64,000 nt of DNA from Micrococcales bacterium (GCA_021287075.1 JAJTBD010000001.1:186001-250000), one strand, 5' to 3'; shown: positions 7,457-16,130, numbered from the stretch's first letter. Notes: generated by a model not told the origin, from the sequence alone. Made by a program: numbers and translations.

Positions 7457-7578
7457 GCCAACTGTCGGGCATTAAGTCTTCACTTTCGCCTCGCTCGAGT
7501 CGCGCGATCGTGCTCTCCGACTTAAGTTGCACCTATCTGGCCGCCACAGGGGGGGGCCAATGATCTAGGAGGGACTCA

Positions 7579-8034
7579 ATGAAGAGACTCCTCGCAACCG
7601 TGTCTTTGGCGCTGGGCGTCCTGGGCATGGCCGCTACCCCGGCTTTCGCCGGTGTTGATGACTGCCCGAGCGGTTCGGTCTGTCGATGGCAGTACGGCAA
7701 CTACGACGGCAAGCAGGCGACATCACAGATCGACAACCCGGACTACGGCTGTTGGTCAGTCACCTGTGGGAACCAGAGCCGTTGGGATGACGGGTCCACC
7801 GGGCTGAACAACGCTGTCAGCTCAGTCTCCAACCACGGCACACGTTGCAACATTAAGTTCGCTGATGGCACGAACTACACCGGAGCGGACGTGTTCTTTG
7901 GGAGAGCGGGGACGAACTACCAGTGGCGCGACCCGTACCTGTCGAACGGTGGAGGTTACGAGACCACAGTCGGTGGGGCCCTTCGGGTCAACAGCTTCGA
8001 CAACCTCACGACTAGCCACAACTTCTGTCCGTGA
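7579..8034 (+). CDS. Secreted cysteine-rich protein, peptidase-inhibitor I36 / crystallin-like
   Basis: The 151-residue product has a clear signal peptide (basic MKRLL, hydrophobic core, cleavage after TPAFA at about residue 24). The mature part has six cysteines and the pattern DCPSGSVCRWQYGNYDG ... LNNAVSSVSN, resembling the peptidase inhibitor I36 / beta-gamma-crystallin group of small actinomycete proteins; that assignment is by eye. A strong AGGAGGG lies about 6 bases before the ATG. Codon use is noticeably less GC-rich than in rel, hinting at recent acquisition. Its stop overlaps the next gene (GTGA), so it heads a five-gene operon with a lipoprotein and an ABC exporter. The exact function is unknown. 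Confidence 0.72.
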   Translation: MKRLLATVSLALGVLGMAATPAFAGVDDCPSGSVCRWQYGNYDGKQATSQIDNPDYGCWSVTCGNQSRWDDGSTGLNNAVSSVSNHGTRCNIKFADGTNYTGADVFFGRAGTNYQWRDPYLSNGGGYETTVGGALRVNSFDNLTTSHNFCP

Positions 8035-8882
8035 CCCGTTTGACAACAGCACTGAGTGCAGCTGTGGTGGCGAGCACGCTCGCCACCACAGGCTGCTCTA
8101 ATGCCGCCGGCACCAGCCCCGAACCCACCACGAGCCCAAACGCGTCACGCGACGTCAGTGCCACAGCCACGGTTGATCACCGAGCGGGACAGATCAGACT
8201 GCCCATGGACGCCATTGCGCCGACGGAGCGGCAGCTGTGGACCATGGACTACGCAATGGACATGCTCACCCACGACTGCATGGCCGAGGCCGGGCAGGAC
8301 TACCCCCTGGTCGACTACCGGCAGCAGATCGAGAGACCAGATAGGCGGTACGGCGTCTGGCGGCTTGAGGACGCCCAGGCGTTTGGGTACGCACTTCCCC
8401 CGGATGACCCGACGCGCAAGCGGCTCAAGGAGCTCAACGCCGGTGGCGGCACTCCGGAGTGGGACGCGGCATTCAAGACCTGTATCGAGTCCCCGGAGCG
8501 AGCCAAGTACTCGCTGCGCGCCGGCAAGGCGCCGCGGGCGGGGATTGACAGCTATCAGACGGCGCTGGCCTCGCCTGAGGGCAAGGCGATCTGGGCGGCC
8601 TGGAGCACGTGCATGAAGGAGGCAGGCTTCCAGTCACCGCGCGAGGGCGAGTGGATCGATCCAGCGTGGGCGGACGCGGACACCGAGACCGAGATCCGCA
8701 CCGCGGTTGCCGACGTCAAGTGCAAGGACCAGCACGACACGGTCCAGAAGTTCGCGGATCTGGAGGCCTCCTACCAACAGCCTGTGATCGACTCGGATGC
8801 AGCAGGATTCGCGGCCTACCGCCAGGAGATAGGTCGTGTAGTCGGGCTCTGTGAAGGGGTGATCAGTGAGCACGGCGGATAG
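8031..8882 (+). CDS. Lipoprotein of unknown function
   Basis: The 283-residue product has a lipoprotein signal peptide ending in LATTGC, with C22 as the likely lipidated residue, then a Thr/Pro-rich linker. The mature domain contains several cysteines, including HDCM, FKTCIES, WSTCMKE, VKCKDQ and VGLCEG, so paired disulphides outside the cell are likely. I do not recognise the family. The start overlaps the preceding stop by 4 bases, and the end overlaps the adaptor gene by 17 bases. Its place beside a membrane-fusion-type adaptor suggests it works at the cell surface with the transporter. Confidence 0.75.
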   Translation: MTRLTTALSAAVVASTLATTGCSNAAGTSPEPTTSPNASRDVSATATVDHRAGQIRLPMDAIAPTERQLWTMDYAMDMLTHDCMAEAGQDYPLVDYRQQIERPDRRYGVWRLEDAQAFGYALPPDDPTRKRLKELNAGGGTPEWDAAFKTCIESPERAKYSLRAGKAPRAGIDSYQTALASPEGKAIWAAWSTCMKEAGFQSPREGEWIDPAWADADTETEIRTAVADVKCKDQHDTVQKFADLEASYQQPVIDSDAAGFAAYRQEIGRVVGLCEGVISEHGG

Positions 8883-10044
8883 CGGAGACGGTGTGCGCCT
8901 GGAGCGAGTCATGCACCCCCGCCGCTGGCTAGCCCTGCTGGCCTCCGCGCTGCTTCTCGTCGCGCTCGGTTTCGGTCTAGGAGCCCGGTTCACCTCGCCC
9001 AACGAGATTGATGTGCCAGTGGTCGACTCCGTGCGGCCCGTCTTCGCAACGGCCGAGATGCGCTCCTTCGCCGTGGCCGAGTCGGTGACCGGGACCTTTG
9101 GCGCCGCGTCAACGGTTGAGGTTGCTGCCTTCAAGCCCCAGGGGACCGAGCGCGCCGTCGTCGACAGGGTCTACGTCAAGGTGGGCGATGAAGTGCGCCC
9201 CGGCAAACCCCTTGTGGCCATCTCCGGTCGTCCGCTGATCGCACTGGTGATGGATGTGCCCCTCTCCAGGTCGTTGACATACGGGGACAGGGGGCCCGAC
9301 GTCCTCAAGGTCTCATCGGCTCTGTCGCAGGCCGGGCTGCTCGGAGGAGCCCCCGACCAGGTCTACGGCCCCGTTCTACGTCAGGCAGTTGTCGACCTGT
9401 ATGCCGCGGCGGGCTTCACGCCGCCGACTGCTGCTGAGGCCGGGGAAGCTGCGGCGGGCGCCAAGACTGCCGCGCCGCTCCCGGCCGGCAGCAAGATCGA
9501 GATATCCGAGATCCAGCCGATCCGGGCCGGATCGCGGGTGGCGGCAGTCCCATCGGCGGGGGATCTGGTCGAGGGCTCTGACAAGCCGTTGCTGACCCTG
9601 TCCTCGGGAGCCGGGAAGGTGACGGCCCGGGTGCCCGTCAACAGCCGCGACAGTTTTGCGGTGGGACAACGGGTGACGGTCCAGGTGCCTGGGGCACAGG
9701 ACACCGCGGTAACCGGGAAGGTCGTGGCCGTCAGCGCCTTCCACGAGGCAGGCGAGAGCAAGTCCCTCCCTGGGTACGACGCCACCATCGTCTTGGACAA
9801 GGCGGCGGGATTCGACAGCGGCCAGAGCGTCCGCTGCACGGCCACAGTGGATGAGAGCACGAAGGCGCTTGGAGTGCCCGCGACAGCCGTGCGAGAGGAC
9901 TCCAAGGGCACCTTCGTGCAGGTCGCCGGGTCTGGTGCAGCCAGCACCCGCGTCCCCGTCCGGATCGGCGCCGAGTCCGATGGATGGGTCGCTGTGACCG
10001 GTGAGCCGCTGAAGGCCGGTGACCGTGTGCAGGTCTATCCGTGA
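8866..10044 (+). CDS. Efflux adaptor (HlyD/MacA-like) with peptidoglycan-binding-like domain
   Basis: A 392-residue protein with a short cytoplasmic start, one membrane segment (about 22-42) and a large outside part. It has a biotinyl-lipoyl-like hairpin around VDRVYVKVGDEVRPGKPLVAI, an inserted segment resembling a peptidoglycan-binding_1 domain (DVLKVSSALSQAGLL ... VYGPVLRQAVVDLY), and C-terminal beta domains ending GEPLKAGDRVQV. This architecture is common for adaptors paired with MacB-type ABC proteins in Gram-positive bacteria. The GTG start lies inside the lipoprotein gene and the stop overlaps the ATPase gene. It probably links the ABC permease to the cell wall. Confidence 0.8.
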   Translation: MSTADSGDGVRLERVMHPRRWLALLASALLLVALGFGLGARFTSPNEIDVPVVDSVRPVFATAEMRSFAVAESVTGTFGAASTVEVAAFKPQGTERAVVDRVYVKVGDEVRPGKPLVAISGRPLIALVMDVPLSRSLTYGDRGPDVLKVSSALSQAGLLGGAPDQVYGPVLRQAVVDLYAAAGFTPPTAAEAGEAAAGAKTAAPLPAGSKIEISEIQPIRAGSRVAAVPSAGDLVEGSDKPLLTLSSGAGKVTARVPVNSRDSFAVGQRVTVQVPGAQDTAVTGKVVAVSAFHEAGESKSLPGYDATIVLDKAAGFDSGQSVRCTATVDESTKALGVPATAVREDSKGTFVQVAGSGAASTRVPVRIGAESDGWVAVTGEPLKAGDRVQVYP

Positions 10045-10739
10045 ACGCCGATCCGGGCGGAGGCCTGCTGAGTCTGAGAGGGGTAGTGCGGGAGTTCGCC
10101 GGCCCACCACCGGTGCGCGCGCTCGACGGGGTTGATCTCGAACTGGGTCAGGGTGAGTACCTCGCGGTGCAAGGACCGTCTGGGGCAGGGAAGTCAACCC
10201 TCCTCAATGTCATCGGTCTGCTCGACCGCCCCAGCGCGGGTGCCTATGACGTCAATGGGCGTGCCACGGCCGCGCTGTCCGAGCGGGAGCGGGACCGGCT
10301 CCGCTCATCGATGTTCGGATTCGTCTTCCAGTCCTCCCACATGCTGCCCGGGCGCACGGTGGCCGCCAACGTCGCGCTGGCGCTCCAGATCCAAGGCATC
10401 GAACACGCCCGTCGGGCCGAACGTGTCGAAGATGCGCTGCGCTCTGTCGGGCTGCTGTCGCGGGCCAACGCGCCGACCTTCCAGCTCTCGGGGGGAGAGC
10501 GTCAGCGGGCGGCGATCGCGCGTGCGATTGTCGGTTGCCCGCGTGTCCTGCTCGCCGACGAGCCCACGGGCAATCTTGACCATGCCAACGCCACCGACGT
10601 GATAGCGCTCATGAGATCTGTTGTCACAGAGGGAATCTCGGTCGTGGTGATCACACACGACGATCGCGTTGCGCAGTCCGCAGACCGCACAGTCCAGCTG
10701 ATCGATGGACGGGTCCACGGCCACCTGAGGGCCTCATGA
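10041..10739 (+). CDS. ABC transporter ATP-binding protein, MacB/LolD type
   Basis: A 232-residue ATPase. Walker A GPSGAGKST at residues 45-53, a Q-loop in FGFVFQSSHMLPGRTV, signature LSGGERQRAAIARAI, Walker B RVLLADEPTGNLD, and switch His in VVITHD. The phrase PTGNLD is characteristic of the LolD/MacB/FtsE branch. It overlaps the genes on both sides by 4 bases, so it belongs to one transcript with the adaptor and permease. The substrate cannot be read from the sequence; the upstream secreted protein is one candidate. Confidence 0.92.
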   Translation: MNADPGGGLLSLRGVVREFAGPPPVRALDGVDLELGQGEYLAVQGPSGAGKSTLLNVIGLLDRPSAGAYDVNGRATAALSERERDRLRSSMFGFVFQSSHMLPGRTVAANVALALQIQGIEHARRAERVEDALRSVGLLSRANAPTFQLSGGERQRAAIARAIVGCPRVLLADEPTGNLDHANATDVIALMRSVVTEGISVVVITHDDRVAQSADRTVQLIDGRVHGHLRAS

Positions 10740-11941
10740 GCGTCTCGACAGGGCTCGACACCATCTCGGACGTGCTCAACTCGCTCATGGAGCGGCCGGT
10801 GAAGTCGCTGTTGATCGCCGCTGTGTTCGCCCTGGGCTCGGGTGGTTTCGTCAGCGCACTGGGGTTGAGCCAGACGGCATCTCACCAGATCACCCAGAAG
10901 CTGACGCCGCGCGACATCGATGAGGTCACCATCCGCGCGTCGGCCGGTGACGGCAACGAGGGCGCGCCGGCTCTGCCGGCGAACGCCAAGAACGCCCTCG
11001 CTGCGCTGGAGGGAGTGACCTCCGTCGGAGAGGCCGTGCCTCTCACCAGAGAGACCGCACGCGTCAGCCGCTGGGAGCAGCCCACGTCTGGCCAGGCGAG
11101 CGCCAACGCCCCGCAGGCGCTTGGTGTCGACACTAGTTGGCTCTCTCTCAACAGGGTCGTCTCGACTCCCGTGGGGACGCAGTGGCAGCTGCGGGACGCG
11201 AACGGTCTGCGGGACCAGGCCCTGGTCGGCGCAGTAGCGGCGCGGCGCCTCGGGCTGGGGTCTCCCGCCCCGGGTGTCTCGGTCTGGGTTGGCGGACGGA
11301 GATTCGACGTCATCGGTGTGGTCACCTCGGCGGGACGTCGGCCGGATGTCGACAACGCCGTGCTGGTGTCGTTGAGTGCCGCCAAAGCCATCGATCCGGC
11401 AGCGACGCCGGAGGTCGTGGTGCGAACGCGGCCCGGCTACGCAAGTGCGGTCGCAAAGGCCGCGCCGGTGGCAATCAGCGCCACTGCGCCGAGCCTGGTG
11501 CAGGTCGATCCGGTCCTGGACCTGTCCAACCTGCGCCGCGGGGTATCCACTGACCTGGACCGGATAGTCGCGATGGCCTCTGGGCTCGTGCTGCTGCTGG
11601 CTGGGCTCACCATCGCCAACGCGTCGGTCGTCTCTGTGCTCAACCGACGCGGCGAGATCGGCCTCAGACGGGCCCTCGGCGCCTCGAGGTGGAGCATCGC
11701 CCGGCTCTTCCTGCTCGAGGGAGGGGTGACCGGACTGGCAGGGGGCCTGATCGGGCTGCCGATCGGCATGGCCGTGGTGATAGCTGTCGCGGTGGCGCGC
11801 GGCTGGACCCCCGTCCTGTCGATGCAGCTGGTGCCACTGGCGCTGCTGACCGGCGCTGTCGCTGGGGTGCTCTTCTCTGCCTATCCCGCCTGGCGTGCGA
11901 CGAGGATCGAGCCCGCTGAGGCGGTTCGACAACGCGACTGA
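10736..11941 (+). CDS. ABC transporter permease, FtsX/MacB type
   Basis: A 401-residue permease. One N-terminal membrane segment (about 20-42), a large extracytoplasmic domain (about 45-270) and three C-terminal membrane segments carrying the FtsX-domain phrase RRGEIGLRRALGASRWSIARLF and a YPAWRATRIEPAEAVR ending, both typical of MacB-like permeases. ATG overlaps the ATPase stop (ATGA). MacB-type proteins usually work as mechanotransmitters for export of peptides, lipoproteins or toxic compounds rather than as importers. A hairpin terminator follows at once. Confidence 0.92.
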   Translation: MSVSTGLDTISDVLNSLMERPVKSLLIAAVFALGSGGFVSALGLSQTASHQITQKLTPRDIDEVTIRASAGDGNEGAPALPANAKNALAALEGVTSVGEAVPLTRETARVSRWEQPTSGQASANAPQALGVDTSWLSLNRVVSTPVGTQWQLRDANGLRDQALVGAVAARRLGLGSPAPGVSVWVGGRRFDVIGVVTSAGRRPDVDNAVLVSLSAAKAIDPAATPEVVVRTRPGYASAVAKAAPVAISATAPSLVQVDPVLDLSNLRRGVSTDLDRIVAMASGLVLLLAGLTIANASVVSVLNRRGEIGLRRALGASRWSIARLFLLEGGVTGLAGGLIGLPIGMAVVIAVAVARGWTPVLSMQLVPLALLTGAVAGVLFSAYPAWRATRIEPAEAVRQRD

Positions 11942-11957
11942 GGGCAATCAGGGCGAC

Positions 11958-11988
11958 GGCGCGGCATACCTCTGGCGTATGCCGCGCC
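11958..11988 (+). terminator. Hairpin terminator built from two inverted GTATGCCGC motifs
   Basis: Twelve-base perfect inverted repeat (11958-11969 and 11977-11988, GGCGCGGCATAC / GTATGCCGCGCC) with a 7-base loop, 17 bases after the permease stop. No T-tract follows. It closes the accessory operon. Confidence 0.6.
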
Positions 11989-12045
11989 GACCTGCAAGCC
12001 TTGCCTGCCAGGGTGTCGACGCACACCGTGATGGGGGAGAGGCAC

Positions 12046-12979
12046 GTGAAACGGATCGACATCTCACCGGTGGGGCTGGGCAGGGTCCGCTGGCAGCGGT
12101 CACCGCTGTTCGAGCTCACGTCGCTGGTGCGTGCCGGTCTGTCGGGGCGGCCTCACCCCGTGGCCGGTGACGTGCGCGCGGAGGTGCTGCGTGCTCTCGC
12201 CGACCCCCGGGCTGCGGTCGTCGCCGACCTCGCACCGCCCCGTGGGCGCGGTGCCTTCCCGCTCGTCACCGTCCCACCCGTGCTCGGGGAGGACACCCTG
12301 GAGGCGGAGCTCGCCGCGGTGGCGGGGCGGACCCGCGACCAGATCGACGCGGAGCTGGTGCCCCTGACGCGCCCCATCACGCCGCGGCTGCGCCGTCTGC
12401 ACCAGGAGCAGCGACTGGGCGAGGAGACCGCGCGGGCGCTGCGCCACCTCTGGGACTCGCTGATGGCGCCCAGGTGGCCCGAGGTGCGGCGGGCGCTGCA
12501 CGAGGACATCGCCGTGACCTGGCGCGGTCGGATCGTCCGGGCTGGCGGGGGCGCTGGCCGCGCTGCACCCCCGCCTGCACTGGACGGCGCCGGGACGACT
12601 GGTCGTCGACAAGCCGATCACCGGACACAAGGACCTCGGCGACGACGGCCTGGTGCTGATCCCCTCGGTGATGTGCCTCGACGAGCCCCTGATCGCCCTC
12701 GACGAGGCGATCCCCGCGCTGTCGTATGCCGTGCGCCGGCCCGGCCGCGCGCGCCGGGCCCCCAGCGGGGACAGCGCGCAGTCGGCGCTGATCGGGGCGA
12801 CCCGCTCGCGCGTGCTCACCGCAGTGGGTGAGGGCGCGACCACCACCCAGCTCGCCCGCGGCCTCGACCTGCCGACGTCGACCGGCTCGTCGCACCTCGC
12901 GGTGCTGCACTGCGCCGGCCTGGTCAGCCGGTCCCGAGAGGGCAAGTCGGTGGTCTATCGGACCCTGCCGACCCGGTGA
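12046..12979 (+). pseudogene. ArsR-type transcriptional regulator (DUF5937-like N-terminus), frameshifted
   Basis: Two reading frames together make one regulator of about 310 residues. The first runs from GTG 12046 (after GGGGGA) through RIDISPVGLGRVRW and LHEDIAVTWRGRIVRAGG; the second resumes ALAALHPRLHW and continues to a winged-helix domain, TRSRVLTAVGEGATTTQLAR ... SSHLAVLHCAGLV. The switch falls in a run of five G at 12547-12551 and needs one extra base there. The combination resembles actinomycete ArsR regulators with a DUF5937 region. Either a recent inactivating insertion or a homopolymer sequencing error. It could have controlled the transporter operon upstream. Confidence 0.7.
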
Positions 12980-12982
12980 GTC

Positions 12983-13478
12983 CTAGAGCGGCAGGCGCGT
13001 GTTCTGGTCGGCGATGACGACCCACTTGCCCTTGTCCCGGGTCCAGGTGAGCGCGAAGAGAGCGTGGGAGGTCGAGGTGACATTGCCGGCCGCGTCGTAC
13101 TCCTTGTAGACGTAGTCGACCGATGCCCAGGCGGTCTTGCAGCCCTCGACATCGGTGTGGATGACGGTGTTGTCCTGCGTCCAGGTCGTGCTCGAGGCGA
13201 ACCAGCTCTTGTGGAATGCCATGAACGCGTCCTTGCCGTAGCGGGTGTTGCCGCTGGGGAAGATCAGAACGACGTCCTCGTCGATCGTCGGCTCGAGCTT
13301 GGCCAGGTCCCGCTCGCTGAGCGCGGTCAGGTGGGTGTCCAGGGCCTGCTCGAACTGCGCCTGGCACCCGGTGGACTTGCCCTCCGGTGCCGGCGGCGCC
13401 GACGGGGACGGCCGAGAGGGTCAGGGCGCCGGCGGCGATGACGGAGCCGGCGACGAGGCGGGAGAGCGTGGCGGGCAT
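12983..13478 (-). pseudogene. Secreted NTF2/SnoaL-like protein, frameshifted
   Basis: Read on the minus strand, an ATG at 13478 opens a signal peptide (MPATLSRLVAGSVIAAGALT, cleavage near VGAAG). The mature domain is in another frame: KSTGCQAQFEQALDTHL, then LAKLEPTIDEDVVLIFP, GKDAFMAFHKSWF, and HALFALTWTRDKGKWVVIAD, the pattern of a DUF4440/SnoaL-like NTF2 fold. The frames join if one G of the GGG at 13380-13382 is removed. As in the neighbouring regulator, the lesion is a +1 in a G run, so sequencing error is a real alternative to true decay. It converges with the regulator, 3 bases apart. Confidence 0.65.
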
Positions 13479-13587
13479 GGCGGGTCCTTCCGGTGCGGGG
13501 CCCCGGATGGGCCCGGCTGCCGTCACCCAATCGCCGGTGGCGGCAGCCGGCCAATCCTTTCGACCAGGCCCGCAAGGTCCCGTGCGC

Positions 13588-15279
13588 TCAGCCGCCGAAC
13601 TCGTCCAGCCCGGCCTGCGCCATCTTGAGCAGGGACTGGGCGGACTCCAGCTCGGACTGGAGTCGGGCGCGCTTGTTGTCGTCGGCGCTCTCGATCTGCT
13701 TCTCGAGCTTGGCGACCTTGTCCTGGAGCTGGCCGACGAGGCTGGACGCGCGGGCGGCCACCTCGGGGTTGGTGCGCTGCCACTTCTTGTCCTCGGCCTC
13801 GCGAACGGCGGACTCGATGCGGCGCAGCCCCTTCTCGACACGGTCCATGTCGCCGCGGGGCACCTTGCCGGCGGTCTCCCACTTGTCCTGGATGACGCGC
13901 AGCTGGGCCTTGGCCTGGTCGAGGTCCTTGACCGGCAGGATCTGCTGGGCGTCGGCGAGCAGCTGCTCCTTGACGGCCAGGTTGGCGCGGTACTCCTCGT
14001 CCTCGGCGGCGGCCACCTCGTCCTTGGCGGCGAAGAAGGCGTCCTGCGCGGCCTTGAAGCGCGCCCACAGCGCGTCGTCGTCGGCGCGGGAGGCGCGGCC
14101 GGCCTTGCGCCAGCGGTCCATCAGCCGCTTGTATGCCGTGGCCGTCGGGCCCCAGTCGGTGCTGCCCTGGAGCGCCTCGGCCTCGGCGACCAGCTCCTCC
14201 TTGGCCGACTTGGCCTCGGCGTGGGTCTCGTCGAGCTGGGCGAAGTAGACCCGACGCGCCTTGTCGAACCGGTTGCGGGCGTGCGAGAAGCGCTGCCACA
14301 GCTCGTTCTCGGACGGCTTGTCGAGCTTGGCGCCGCTGCGCTGGTGCTGCTTCCACTCCTCGAGGAGCTCGCGCATTCGGGCGCCCGACTGCTTCCACTG
14401 GACCTTCTCCGAGGGCTGACCGGCGATCTTCTCCGCCTCGGCGACGATCCTCTCGCGCTCACCCTTGGCGACCTCGCGGGCGGCGGCGCGGTCGGCCTGC
14501 TCCTGCTCACGCTTGGTGGCCAGACCGGCCTCGATCTCCTGGACGCGGGAGGACAGCGCCGCGAGGTCGCCCACGACCTTGGGCTCGGTCGCCTGCTCCT
14601 TGAGGGTCTTCAGGCCATCGGCCACCTCGCGGCTGCCGACCTCGGGCAGCTGCATGCGCTGCTGGAGCAGCTCGGCCGAGGCATAGATCTCGTCGTACTT
14701 GCGGGCGTAGTACTGGAGGGCCTCGTCGTGGCTGCCGGCGACATAGGTGCCGACCTCACGCTCGCCCTCGCCCTCGCGGACGAAGACCTTGCCCTCCTCG
14801 TCGACCCGGCCGAATGCCGCGGAGTCGGAGTGGGGGTGGGCCACCGCCGCGGGAGCGGCCGGAGCGTGCACCACCTTGCGCAGCGCGGCCGGCGAGGGGA
14901 TGGCGGTCGGCTTCGGCGAGGCCGGGACGGCCGGGGCTGGGACCGGTGCGGCAGGAGCCTCCGCCTCCTCGACCGGGGGGATCTCGGCGCCGGCCATGGC
15001 GGGCGCGGCCTCGGGCTCCTCGGGAGCGGGCGTCTCCAGCGACTCCGGTGTGGCGGGCTCGCTGTCACCGGGGATCGTGTCGGGCAGACCCGGCTCCTCG
15101 TCGACCGGTGCCGCCTCGACAGGGGGTGCGGCCGCCTCGGTGGGCGCGTCCTCTCCGGAGGGGGTCGCCTCGGCCGGGTCGGCGGTCGGCTGGGTCTCCT
15201 GGGTCGCCTCGTCGGCGCTGGTCTCCAGCGTCGGCTCGGCGGCGGCGGTCTCGTCGGGGGTCGGGGTGTGGTCGCTCAC
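13588..15279 (-). CDS. DUF349 domain protein
   Basis: A 563-residue soluble protein. The first 200 residues are an acidic Glu/Pro/Ala/Thr-rich low-complexity region. The rest is several DUF349 repeats, visible as recurring W-K-x-x-G-x-x-x-R and LWxRF phrases (KVQWKQSGARMRELLEEW, SENELWQRFSHARNRFD, WGPTATAYKRLMDRWRKAGR, DALWARFKAAQDAFF). It ends in a coiled coil (LVGQLQDKVAKLEKQIESAD). The molecular function of DUF349 is not established. It is commonly found near rel and hisS in actinomycetes, as here. GTG start preceded by GAGGG. Confidence 0.88.
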   Translation of the reverse strand: MSDHTPTPDETAAAEPTLETSADEATQETQPTADPAEATPSGEDAPTEAAAPPVEAAPVDEEPGLPDTIPGDSEPATPESLETPAPEEPEAAPAMAGAEIPPVEEAEAPAAPVPAPAVPASPKPTAIPSPAALRKVVHAPAAPAAVAHPHSDSAAFGRVDEEGKVFVREGEGEREVGTYVAGSHDEALQYYARKYDEIYASAELLQQRMQLPEVGSREVADGLKTLKEQATEPKVVGDLAALSSRVQEIEAGLATKREQEQADRAAAREVAKGERERIVAEAEKIAGQPSEKVQWKQSGARMRELLEEWKQHQRSGAKLDKPSENELWQRFSHARNRFDKARRVYFAQLDETHAEAKSAKEELVAEAEALQGSTDWGPTATAYKRLMDRWRKAGRASRADDDALWARFKAAQDAFFAAKDEVAAAEDEEYRANLAVKEQLLADAQQILPVKDLDQAKAQLRVIQDKWETAGKVPRGDMDRVEKGLRRIESAVREAEDKKWQRTNPEVAARASSLVGQLQDKVAKLEKQIESADDNKRARLQSELESAQSLLKMAQAGLDEFGG

Positions 15280-15416
15280 GTGAGGGCCCTCATCGTCAGG
15301 CCTGGCCCGGGGGCCAGGCGTCGGTGCGCAGTGCCGCCGGAGGCGGCGGTGTCACGGCATACGGCACCGCAACACATCACGACAATAGTCACTCAACCGG
15401 TGAATCGGGCAGGAGA

Positions 15417-15422
15417 TAGGCT
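15417..15422 (+). promoter_or_regulatory. -10 box TAGGCT, leaderless promoter of the MBL-hisS operon
   Basis: TAGGCT ends 6 bases before the GTG at 15429. The 149-base gap to the divergent DUF349 gene also holds a CGGCATAC motif at 15355 and an AT-richer patch (15371-15400). Confidence 0.6.
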
Positions 15423-15428
15423 CTGCCG

Positions 15429-16130
15429 GTGCTCACCATCGCCTTTCCCGCCGCTGCGTTCGCCACGAACTGCTATGTCATCGCGGCGGGCCCGGGGGAG
15501 GAGTGCCTGGTCGTCGACCCCGGCATCGGCATCGAGGAGACCCTGCGCTCGGTCCTGGCCGAGCACCGGCTCAGGCCCGCCGCGGTGCTGCTCACCCACG
15601 GCCACGTCGACCATGTCTTCTCGGTGACGCCCGTCTGCGGTGCCGACACCGCGGCATTTATCCATGCTGAGGACCGCTATCGCCTGGCCGACCCGCTGGC
15701 GAGCCTCGACCAGGGGCTGCTGGCCATGTTCGAGCAGCAGTTTGGCAAGGCGGCCACCTGGACGGAGCCGAGCAATGTCGTCGAGGTGCGCGACAGGGAG
15801 ACCCTGACCCTGGCCGGCTTCGACATCGAGGTCCTGCACTCGCCCGGGCACACCGAGGGCTCGGTGATGTTCGGGCTGCCGACCGTGCCCGACGGCATAC
15901 CCGACGAGGTCGGGGTGACCTCCACGATGGTGACCGGCGATGTGCTCTTCGCCGGGTCCATCGGCCGCACCGACCTCCCTGGCGGCGACAACGCAGCCAT
16001 GCAGCGCTCGCTGCGCGATGTCGTCCTGCCCCTGCCCAACTCCACCCTCGTCCTGCCCGGTCACGGCCCCGCCTCGACCATGGCCCGCGAGCGCGCCACC
16101 AACCCATATCTGCAAGGACTCACCGCGTGA
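15429..16130 (+). CDS. MBL-fold metallo-hydrolase (glyoxalase II-like)
   Basis: A 233-residue cytoplasmic hydrolase. The zinc motif THGHVDH sits at about residues 57-63, with further metal ligands in HSPGHTEGS, VTGDVLFAGSIGRTDL and LPGHGPAST. This is the YcbL/glyoxalase-II-like branch, which hydrolyses thioesters such as S-lactoylglutathione-type compounds; the actual substrate is unknown. GTG start with leaderless -10 box; the stop overlaps the hisS start (GTGA), so both are co-transcribed, as in M. tuberculosis Rv2581c-hisS. Confidence 0.9.
   Translation: MLTIAFPAAAFATNCYVIAAGPGEECLVVDPGIGIEETLRSVLAEHRLRPAAVLLTHGHVDHVFSVTPVCGADTAAFIHAEDRYRLADPLASLDQGLLAMFEQQFGKAATWTEPSNVVEVRDRETLTLAGFDIEVLHSPGHTEGSVMFGLPTVPDGIPDEVGVTSTMVTGDVLFAGSIGRTDLPGGDNAAMQRSLRDVVLPLPNSTLVLPGHGPASTMARERATNPYLQGLTA

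Follow-up and report, generated by a model that had tools for sequence, protein, structure and literature searches.

The five overlapping genes at positions 7579–11941 of the window (the whole stretch of DNA analysed, 64,000 nucleotides from a Micrococcales bacterium) form a real and horizontally moving module, and we put the probability at roughly one half that they constitute a horizontally acquired system in which a bacteriocin-like crystallin is combined with a tethered lipoprotein for immunity and an ABC module for efflux or immunity. The conserved core is the pair formed by the crystallin (Pfam I36) and the lipoprotein (Lip) and not the pump, because pairs occur without a pump (L042, L052 and L070); this pair is class-wide and, within the literature and family libraries searched, undescribed. 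No paper in the literature searched joins I36 with a bacteriocin, or a crystallin with a lipoprotein and an immunity protein, nor was anything relevant found there on killer-toxin-like proteins or on crystallin-type inhibitors from Streptomyces. According to the mechanism that we propose, the product of the first gene would be exported by Sec, fold extracellularly into a beta-gamma-crystallin stabilised by disulfides and probably by Ca2+, and act against related competitors at their envelope. The membrane-anchored Lip, with its predicted disulfide-braced helical ectodomain, would bind and neutralise the crystallin at the membrane of the producer. Adaptor, ATPase and permease would build a MacAB/YknXYZ-like ABC machine of type VII, anchored at the peptidoglycan, that could clear the effector, or an effector-lipoprotein complex, from the membrane surface in the manner of YknWXYZ with SDP and NisFEG with nisin.

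An earlier note on this DNA had described five genes overlapping head to tail by 4–17 bases, and the ORF coordinates agree exactly, with overlaps of 4 nt (I36/Lip), 17 nt (Lip/adaptor), 4 nt (adaptor/ATPase) and 4 nt (ATPase/permease). The softer GC claimed for the first genes is likewise observed (0.603 in the I36 gene and 0.657 in the Lip gene), and GC3 is low in all five (0.76–0.83 vs 0.90–0.96 in secD, secF, rel, MBL and hisS). Since rel directly adjoins the convergent DUF349 gene in four relatives (Table 1), the block is an insertion, and the rel-hisS order is interrupted as had been stated. The insertion measures ~6.1 kb and also contains a small ORF and an apparently broken wHTH gene; no convincing flanking direct repeats or integration site were found around it, and PADLOC and PHROGs gave no relevant match to an anti-phage defence or phage family. 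The wHTH/ArsR-type regulator (window 12046–12979, + strand) has an apparent frameshift near 12530–12650 that puts the N-terminal ORF out of frame with the one bearing the HTH, and seems to be a pseudogene or the product of a sequencing error. A terminator had also been placed at the end of the block; a hairpin with a perfect stem is present 16 nt past the last stop codon, but an intrinsic-terminator scan does not report it because it has no T-run. Beyond the insertion, window 13588–16130 lacks a gene of ~264–274 aa that lies between the DUF349 gene and the MBL-fold gene in L119–L121.

Table 1 Features of the five-gene block and its surroundings, in window coordinates.
Feature	Position	Strand	Details
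I36 / beta-gamma-crystallin gene, candidate effector	7579..8034	+	151 aa; PF03995
Lip lipoprotein gene, candidate immunity/partner	8031..8882	+	283 aa; 38-row alignment, AF2 model
HlyD/MacA-like adaptor gene	8866..10044	+	392 aa; HlyD_3, PG_binding_1, RND_mfp
ABC ATPase gene, MacB/LolD/FtsE kind	10041..10739	+	232 aa; ABC_tran; motifs read directly
FtsX/MacB-type permease gene	10736..11941	+	401 aa; FtsX; topology read from sequence
13-bp hairpin, 7-nt loop, possible transcription end	11957..11989	+	fold z=-4.1
Whole insertion, rel to convergent DUF349 gene	7457..13587 (about)		rel-DUF349 adjacency in L119, L120, L121, L126

The first gene encodes a secreted beta-gamma-crystallin of Pfam family I36, as the earlier note had recognised. 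Its product exceeds the gathering score of PF03995 (31.5 bits vs 21.1, E=1.7e-7) and begins, on inspection of the sequence, with a Sec-type signal peptide, which is followed by a mature part with six cysteines. Two copies of the motif sought for the fold, (N/D)(N/D)xx(S/T)S, are present as the Ca2+-type motifs NNAVSS (residues 77–82) and DNLTTS (residues 141–146); we propose that the fold is stabilised by disulfides and probably by Ca2+. A profile of the partner proteins matched Myxococcus protein S (1prr, E=2e-7) as well as spherulin 3a and clostrillin, and the top PDB matches of the structural model (pLDDT 73) are beta-gamma-crystallins, 3hz2 and 1hdf first. With these proteins, and with SMPI of I36, the gene 1 protein shares fold, Ca2+-type motifs, small size and secretion, whereas no dedicated lipoprotein partner and pump were found for microbial beta-gamma-crystallins in the literature searched. 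Secreted I36 beta-gamma-crystallins are common in actinobacteria, where they are annotated as peptidase inhibitor or hypothetical.

The second gene encodes a cysteine-rich lipoprotein, and its description as a member of no recognised family has held up. It has five cysteines, the lipobox C22 and four that are invariant in the 38-row alignment (C83, C151, C194 and C231), and its AF2 model predicts an all-helical ectodomain (pLDDT 89.4). No family match was obtained in Pfam, NCBIfam, PHROGs or PADLOC and no relative by sequence in the PDB, so that no well-studied family with another role came to light; fold searches were uninformative (Foldseek best E=0.6; VIA-align best Z=4.3 at 16.8 Å rmsd). 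The wide Lip alignment offered no stretch conserved enough to serve as a scan query. Together with its position beside I36, Lip would define a new lipoprotein family.

The pairing of the two genes was examined in 392 genomes, using 117 I36 matches and the best 98 Lip matches and requiring both to lie on one strand, with Lip starting ≤600 nt downstream of the I36 domain. An I36 gene with Lip directly downstream was observed in 26 cases in 22 of the 392 genomes, compared with 0.007 expected. Genes for I36 without Lip are frequent (91/117), and dependence therefore runs from Lip to I36. In a class-wide search with Lip only, 24 of 26 fetched loci carried a match to the I36 profile immediately upstream at E<0.5 (21/26 at E<0.01); the remaining two have a small secreted protein that looks similar by eye. 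The presence of a lipoprotein beside I36 at almost all loci sampled across the class gives these crystallins a partner and a function that can be tested. A total of 42 distinct intact pairs was collected. The slot before Lip can also be taken by a small secreted protein from a different or unrecognised family, as at L127:9084-9452, at L056:7453-7782 and, in L037, immediately upstream of 8649, those of L037 and L056 reaching no Pfam cut-off, and at L096 three tandem I36-like genes stand upstream of a single Lip gene.

One further occupant of this slot belongs to a named bacteriocin family. Ten lactococcin-972 loci were fetched, and most or several of them hold the usual large multi-TM protein and ATPase with neither lipoprotein nor adaptor. 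At L152:7037-10716 a Lactococcin_972 gene comes first, followed by those for lipoprotein, adaptor, ATPase and permease, all with short gaps or overlaps. The first gene matches PF09683 (E=5.6e-8), the lipoprotein has six cysteines and a weak match to the Lip profile (E=7e-4), the adaptor motif GDVGPDV resembles GDRGPDV of the window adaptor, and adaptor and permease fall below the Pfam cut-offs. Judged by these matches, L152 appears to place lactococcin 972 at the I36 position, at one locus and with a weak lipoprotein match. Lactococcin 972 clusters resemble the block in that a gene for a small, beta-rich protein secreted by Sec precedes FtsX-like/ABC genes, and L152 has the same five-gene layout; they differ in that most have no lipoprotein and adaptor and in that the effector in the window is a crystallin. 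PF09683 has no match in the gene 1 protein or elsewhere in its genome. Scanning of genome contigs yielded no close relatives of Lip or of the L152 lipoprotein. For the lactococcin 972 family itself, L152 would represent a variant immunity layout.

Genes 3–5 had been read as a MacA-like adaptor with a peptidoglycan-binding-like insert and a MacB-type ATPase and permease, and profile searches agree. The adaptor has one N-terminal TM segment, exceeds the Pfam cut-off for HlyD_3 (E=1.9e-6) and matches RND_mfp (E=2.6e-14), and its insert at residues ~142–177 resembles PG_binding_1 at a score below the cut-off (E=7e-4). The ATPase is over the cut-off for ABC_tran (E=3.9e-29) and shows, on direct reading, Walker A GPSGAGKST, signature LSGGE and Walker B LLADEP; its best NCBIfam models include FtsE, LolD, MacB and L_ocin_972_ABC, none over its cut-off. 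The permease is over the cut-off for FtsX (E=1.3e-18), with four predicted TM segments, the first two separated by a large extracellular domain. Based on these families and the overlapping genes, we assign genes 3–5 to a putative MacAB/YknXYZ-type (type VII) ABC system. A HlyD-type adaptor, an ATPase and a four-TM FtsX permease are shared with type VII systems of the MacAB-TolC and DevBCA type; unlike these, the block belongs to a Gram-positive without TolC, has the insert in its adaptor, and its operon also encodes a secreted protein and a dedicated lipoprotein.

The strict coupling of five genes proposed earlier applies locally, where the genes overlap, but not generally, as adaptor and ATPase lie downstream of Lip on the same strand in 21 of 36 order-level loci, several of which have ATPase and permease in one fused gene. 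In a search of 129 genomes with the adaptor, many matches, nearly all of the strongest included, adjoin a Lip or Lip-like gene. Homologous ABC modules do occur with both secreted protein and lipoprotein, in the same order and across families; neither of the two findings that the earlier note had named as refuting its proposal was thus obtained. Where the module is complete it is inherited as a whole, since the pairwise distances of the five proteins correlate over 15 full modules (r=0.77–0.92). Export of the secreted protein, one of the functions suggested for the ABC module, is unlikely to need that module because of the ordinary Sec-type signal peptide and the pairs that lack a pump. The suggestion of a single bacteriocin-like or self-protecting function fares better: it is the best-supported reading and the pair is class-wide, but the five-gene coupling is local and the pump is unlikely to be needed for export. 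Modules linked to Lip offer a handle on the role of monoderm MacAB-type pumps with wall-binding adaptors.

The module is carried on plasmids. On a Leifsonia shinshuensis plasmid it has the order of the window (I36, Lip, adaptor, fused ABC); it is also present on Streptomyces plasmids, and an Arthrobacter plasmid carries it with no I36 gene recognised. The best Lip matches are spread patchily (52/392 genomes), tandem arrays contain divergent Lips, and Lip copies can exceed those of I36 (5 to 0 at L039, 5 to 2 at L049, 3 to 1 at L057), as expected of orphan immunity genes. These patterns bear on an explanation in terms of envelope maintenance or signalling, where the crystallin would be the cell's own Ca2+-dependent wall protein or ligand, Lip its receptor or chaperone, and an FtsEX-like ABC system would transmit force or signal to the wall. 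Such a role would fit the peptidoglycan-binding-like domain of the adaptor, the likeness of the permease to FtsX, a mechanotransmitter, and the structural, Ca2+-binding nature of many crystallins; that I36 and Lip decay about evenly suits an obligate pair as well as toxin and immunity. Patchy distribution, plasmid carriage, insertion into a conserved locus, arrays of divergent Lips and a bacteriocin in the I36 slot are all unlike housekeeping, and we regard this role as unlikely.

Protease inhibition appears less likely again. It would have I36 blocking extracellular metalloproteases as SMPI blocks thermolysin, with Lip anchoring or delivering the inhibitor and the ABC genes as accessories. 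SMPI, the I36 prototype, inhibits thermolysin and is secreted and cysteine-rich, as is the gene 1 protein, which scores above the threshold of a family named for an inhibitor. The inhibitor-like role envisaged in the earlier note retains this family name as its basis, and "protease inhibitor" is only a label here because the nearest profile and model matches are protein S-type crystallins. Protein S, spherulin 3a and clostrillin, closest to the partner profile, are non-inhibitor crystallins, the single gene 1 sequence matched no inhibitor structure, an inhibitor would not be expected to come with a dedicated lipoprotein and a MacAB-type pump, and at L152 a bacteriocin of the lactococcin-972 family sits in the same slot. 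A Lol-like release of lipoproteins in a monoderm, with the ABC system extracting Lip from the membrane and passing it through the wall and the crystallin as cargo or cap, is very improbable: LolD and LolCE are among the best families for ATPase and permease, and Lip directly precedes the adaptor and diverges in parallel with it (r=0.83) and with the permease (r=0.87), but pump-free pairs are common, no LolD or LolCE cut-off is reached and the block encodes no LolA/LolB-like protein.

A bacteriocin with its immunity protein thus explains the block best. As in such cassettes, a small secreted protein stands beside a dedicated partner gene, and the pair is conserved and mobile. The gene anatomy, the signals for secretion and lipid anchoring, the crystallin fold, the class-wide pairing, the mobility and the joint inheritance with the pump are observed; killing, binding, immunity and efflux are inferred. 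In its support we count the pair statistics, the pump-free pairs, the Lip arrays, the L152 slot, the plasmids, the patchy low-GC3 insertion, the co-inheritance and the precedents discussed below. Against it stand the single weak L152 locus, weak covariation of I36 and Lip beyond that of the module (partial r=0.19), and a charge complementarity between the two that vanished, from r=-0.73 in 20 pairs to r=-0.19 (p=0.22) in 42, and was rejected. Relics are about evenly divided between a broken I36 with an intact Lip (L043, L054, L068) and a broken Lip with an intact I36 (L055, L166; L164 truncated), so that retention of immunity during decay of the toxin is not used as support. Beta-gamma-crystallins elsewhere have structural or inhibitor roles, which also counts against a bacteriocin. 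A more tentative generalisation, to which we give somewhat less than even odds, is that antibacterial beta-gamma-crystallins form a class-wide, undescribed group in which every member is matched by an immunity lipoprotein of its own, braced by cysteines and of new fold, and optionally by a peptidoglycan-tethered MacAB-type pump; the effector position would accept other folds too, lactococcin 972 being an example. Should the effectors prove antibacterial, they would represent a large untapped set of gene-encoded bacteriocins.

Each half of the proposed logic has a precedent by analogy, in YknWXYZ with SDP and in NisI/NisFEG. YknWXYZ of Bacillus is a four-component efflux pump that protects against self-made SDP toxin (PMC4887032). 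It resembles the block in combining an adaptor, a separate ATPase and an FtsX/MacB-type permease in a monoderm and in guarding against a self-made secreted toxin, a part that is proposed for the block (PMC4887032). As far as the cited account describes it, the operon differs in having neither lipoprotein nor toxin gene, its remaining component, YknW, is a membrane protein of the Yip1 family, and no peptidoglycan-binding insert like that of the window adaptor is reported (PMC4887032). NisI and NisFEG form the LanI/LanFEG lantibiotic immunity against nisin, in which a secreted antimicrobial, a neutralising tethered lipoprotein and a clearing ABC transporter follow the logic proposed here (PMC4828448, PMC4234265). 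They differ in that nisin is a modified peptide from a lantibiotic cluster and NisFEG has no HlyD adaptor. As to likeness with LanI (NisI), searches with Lip against solved chains gave no sequence relative in the PDB and no fold match, a result that does not by itself speak against kinship.

Two observations concern Lip genes in other surroundings. On Streptomyces plasmids (L115:7782-12074 and L154:1425-5747), Golvesin_C proteins of ~1,430–1,440 aa adjoin Lip genes. The window's own genome contains a second, distant module of Lip, adaptor, ATPase and permease (L118; G000:C28, ~79.4–83.4 kb), which has no I36 gene and is preceded by a short leader-like ORF only.
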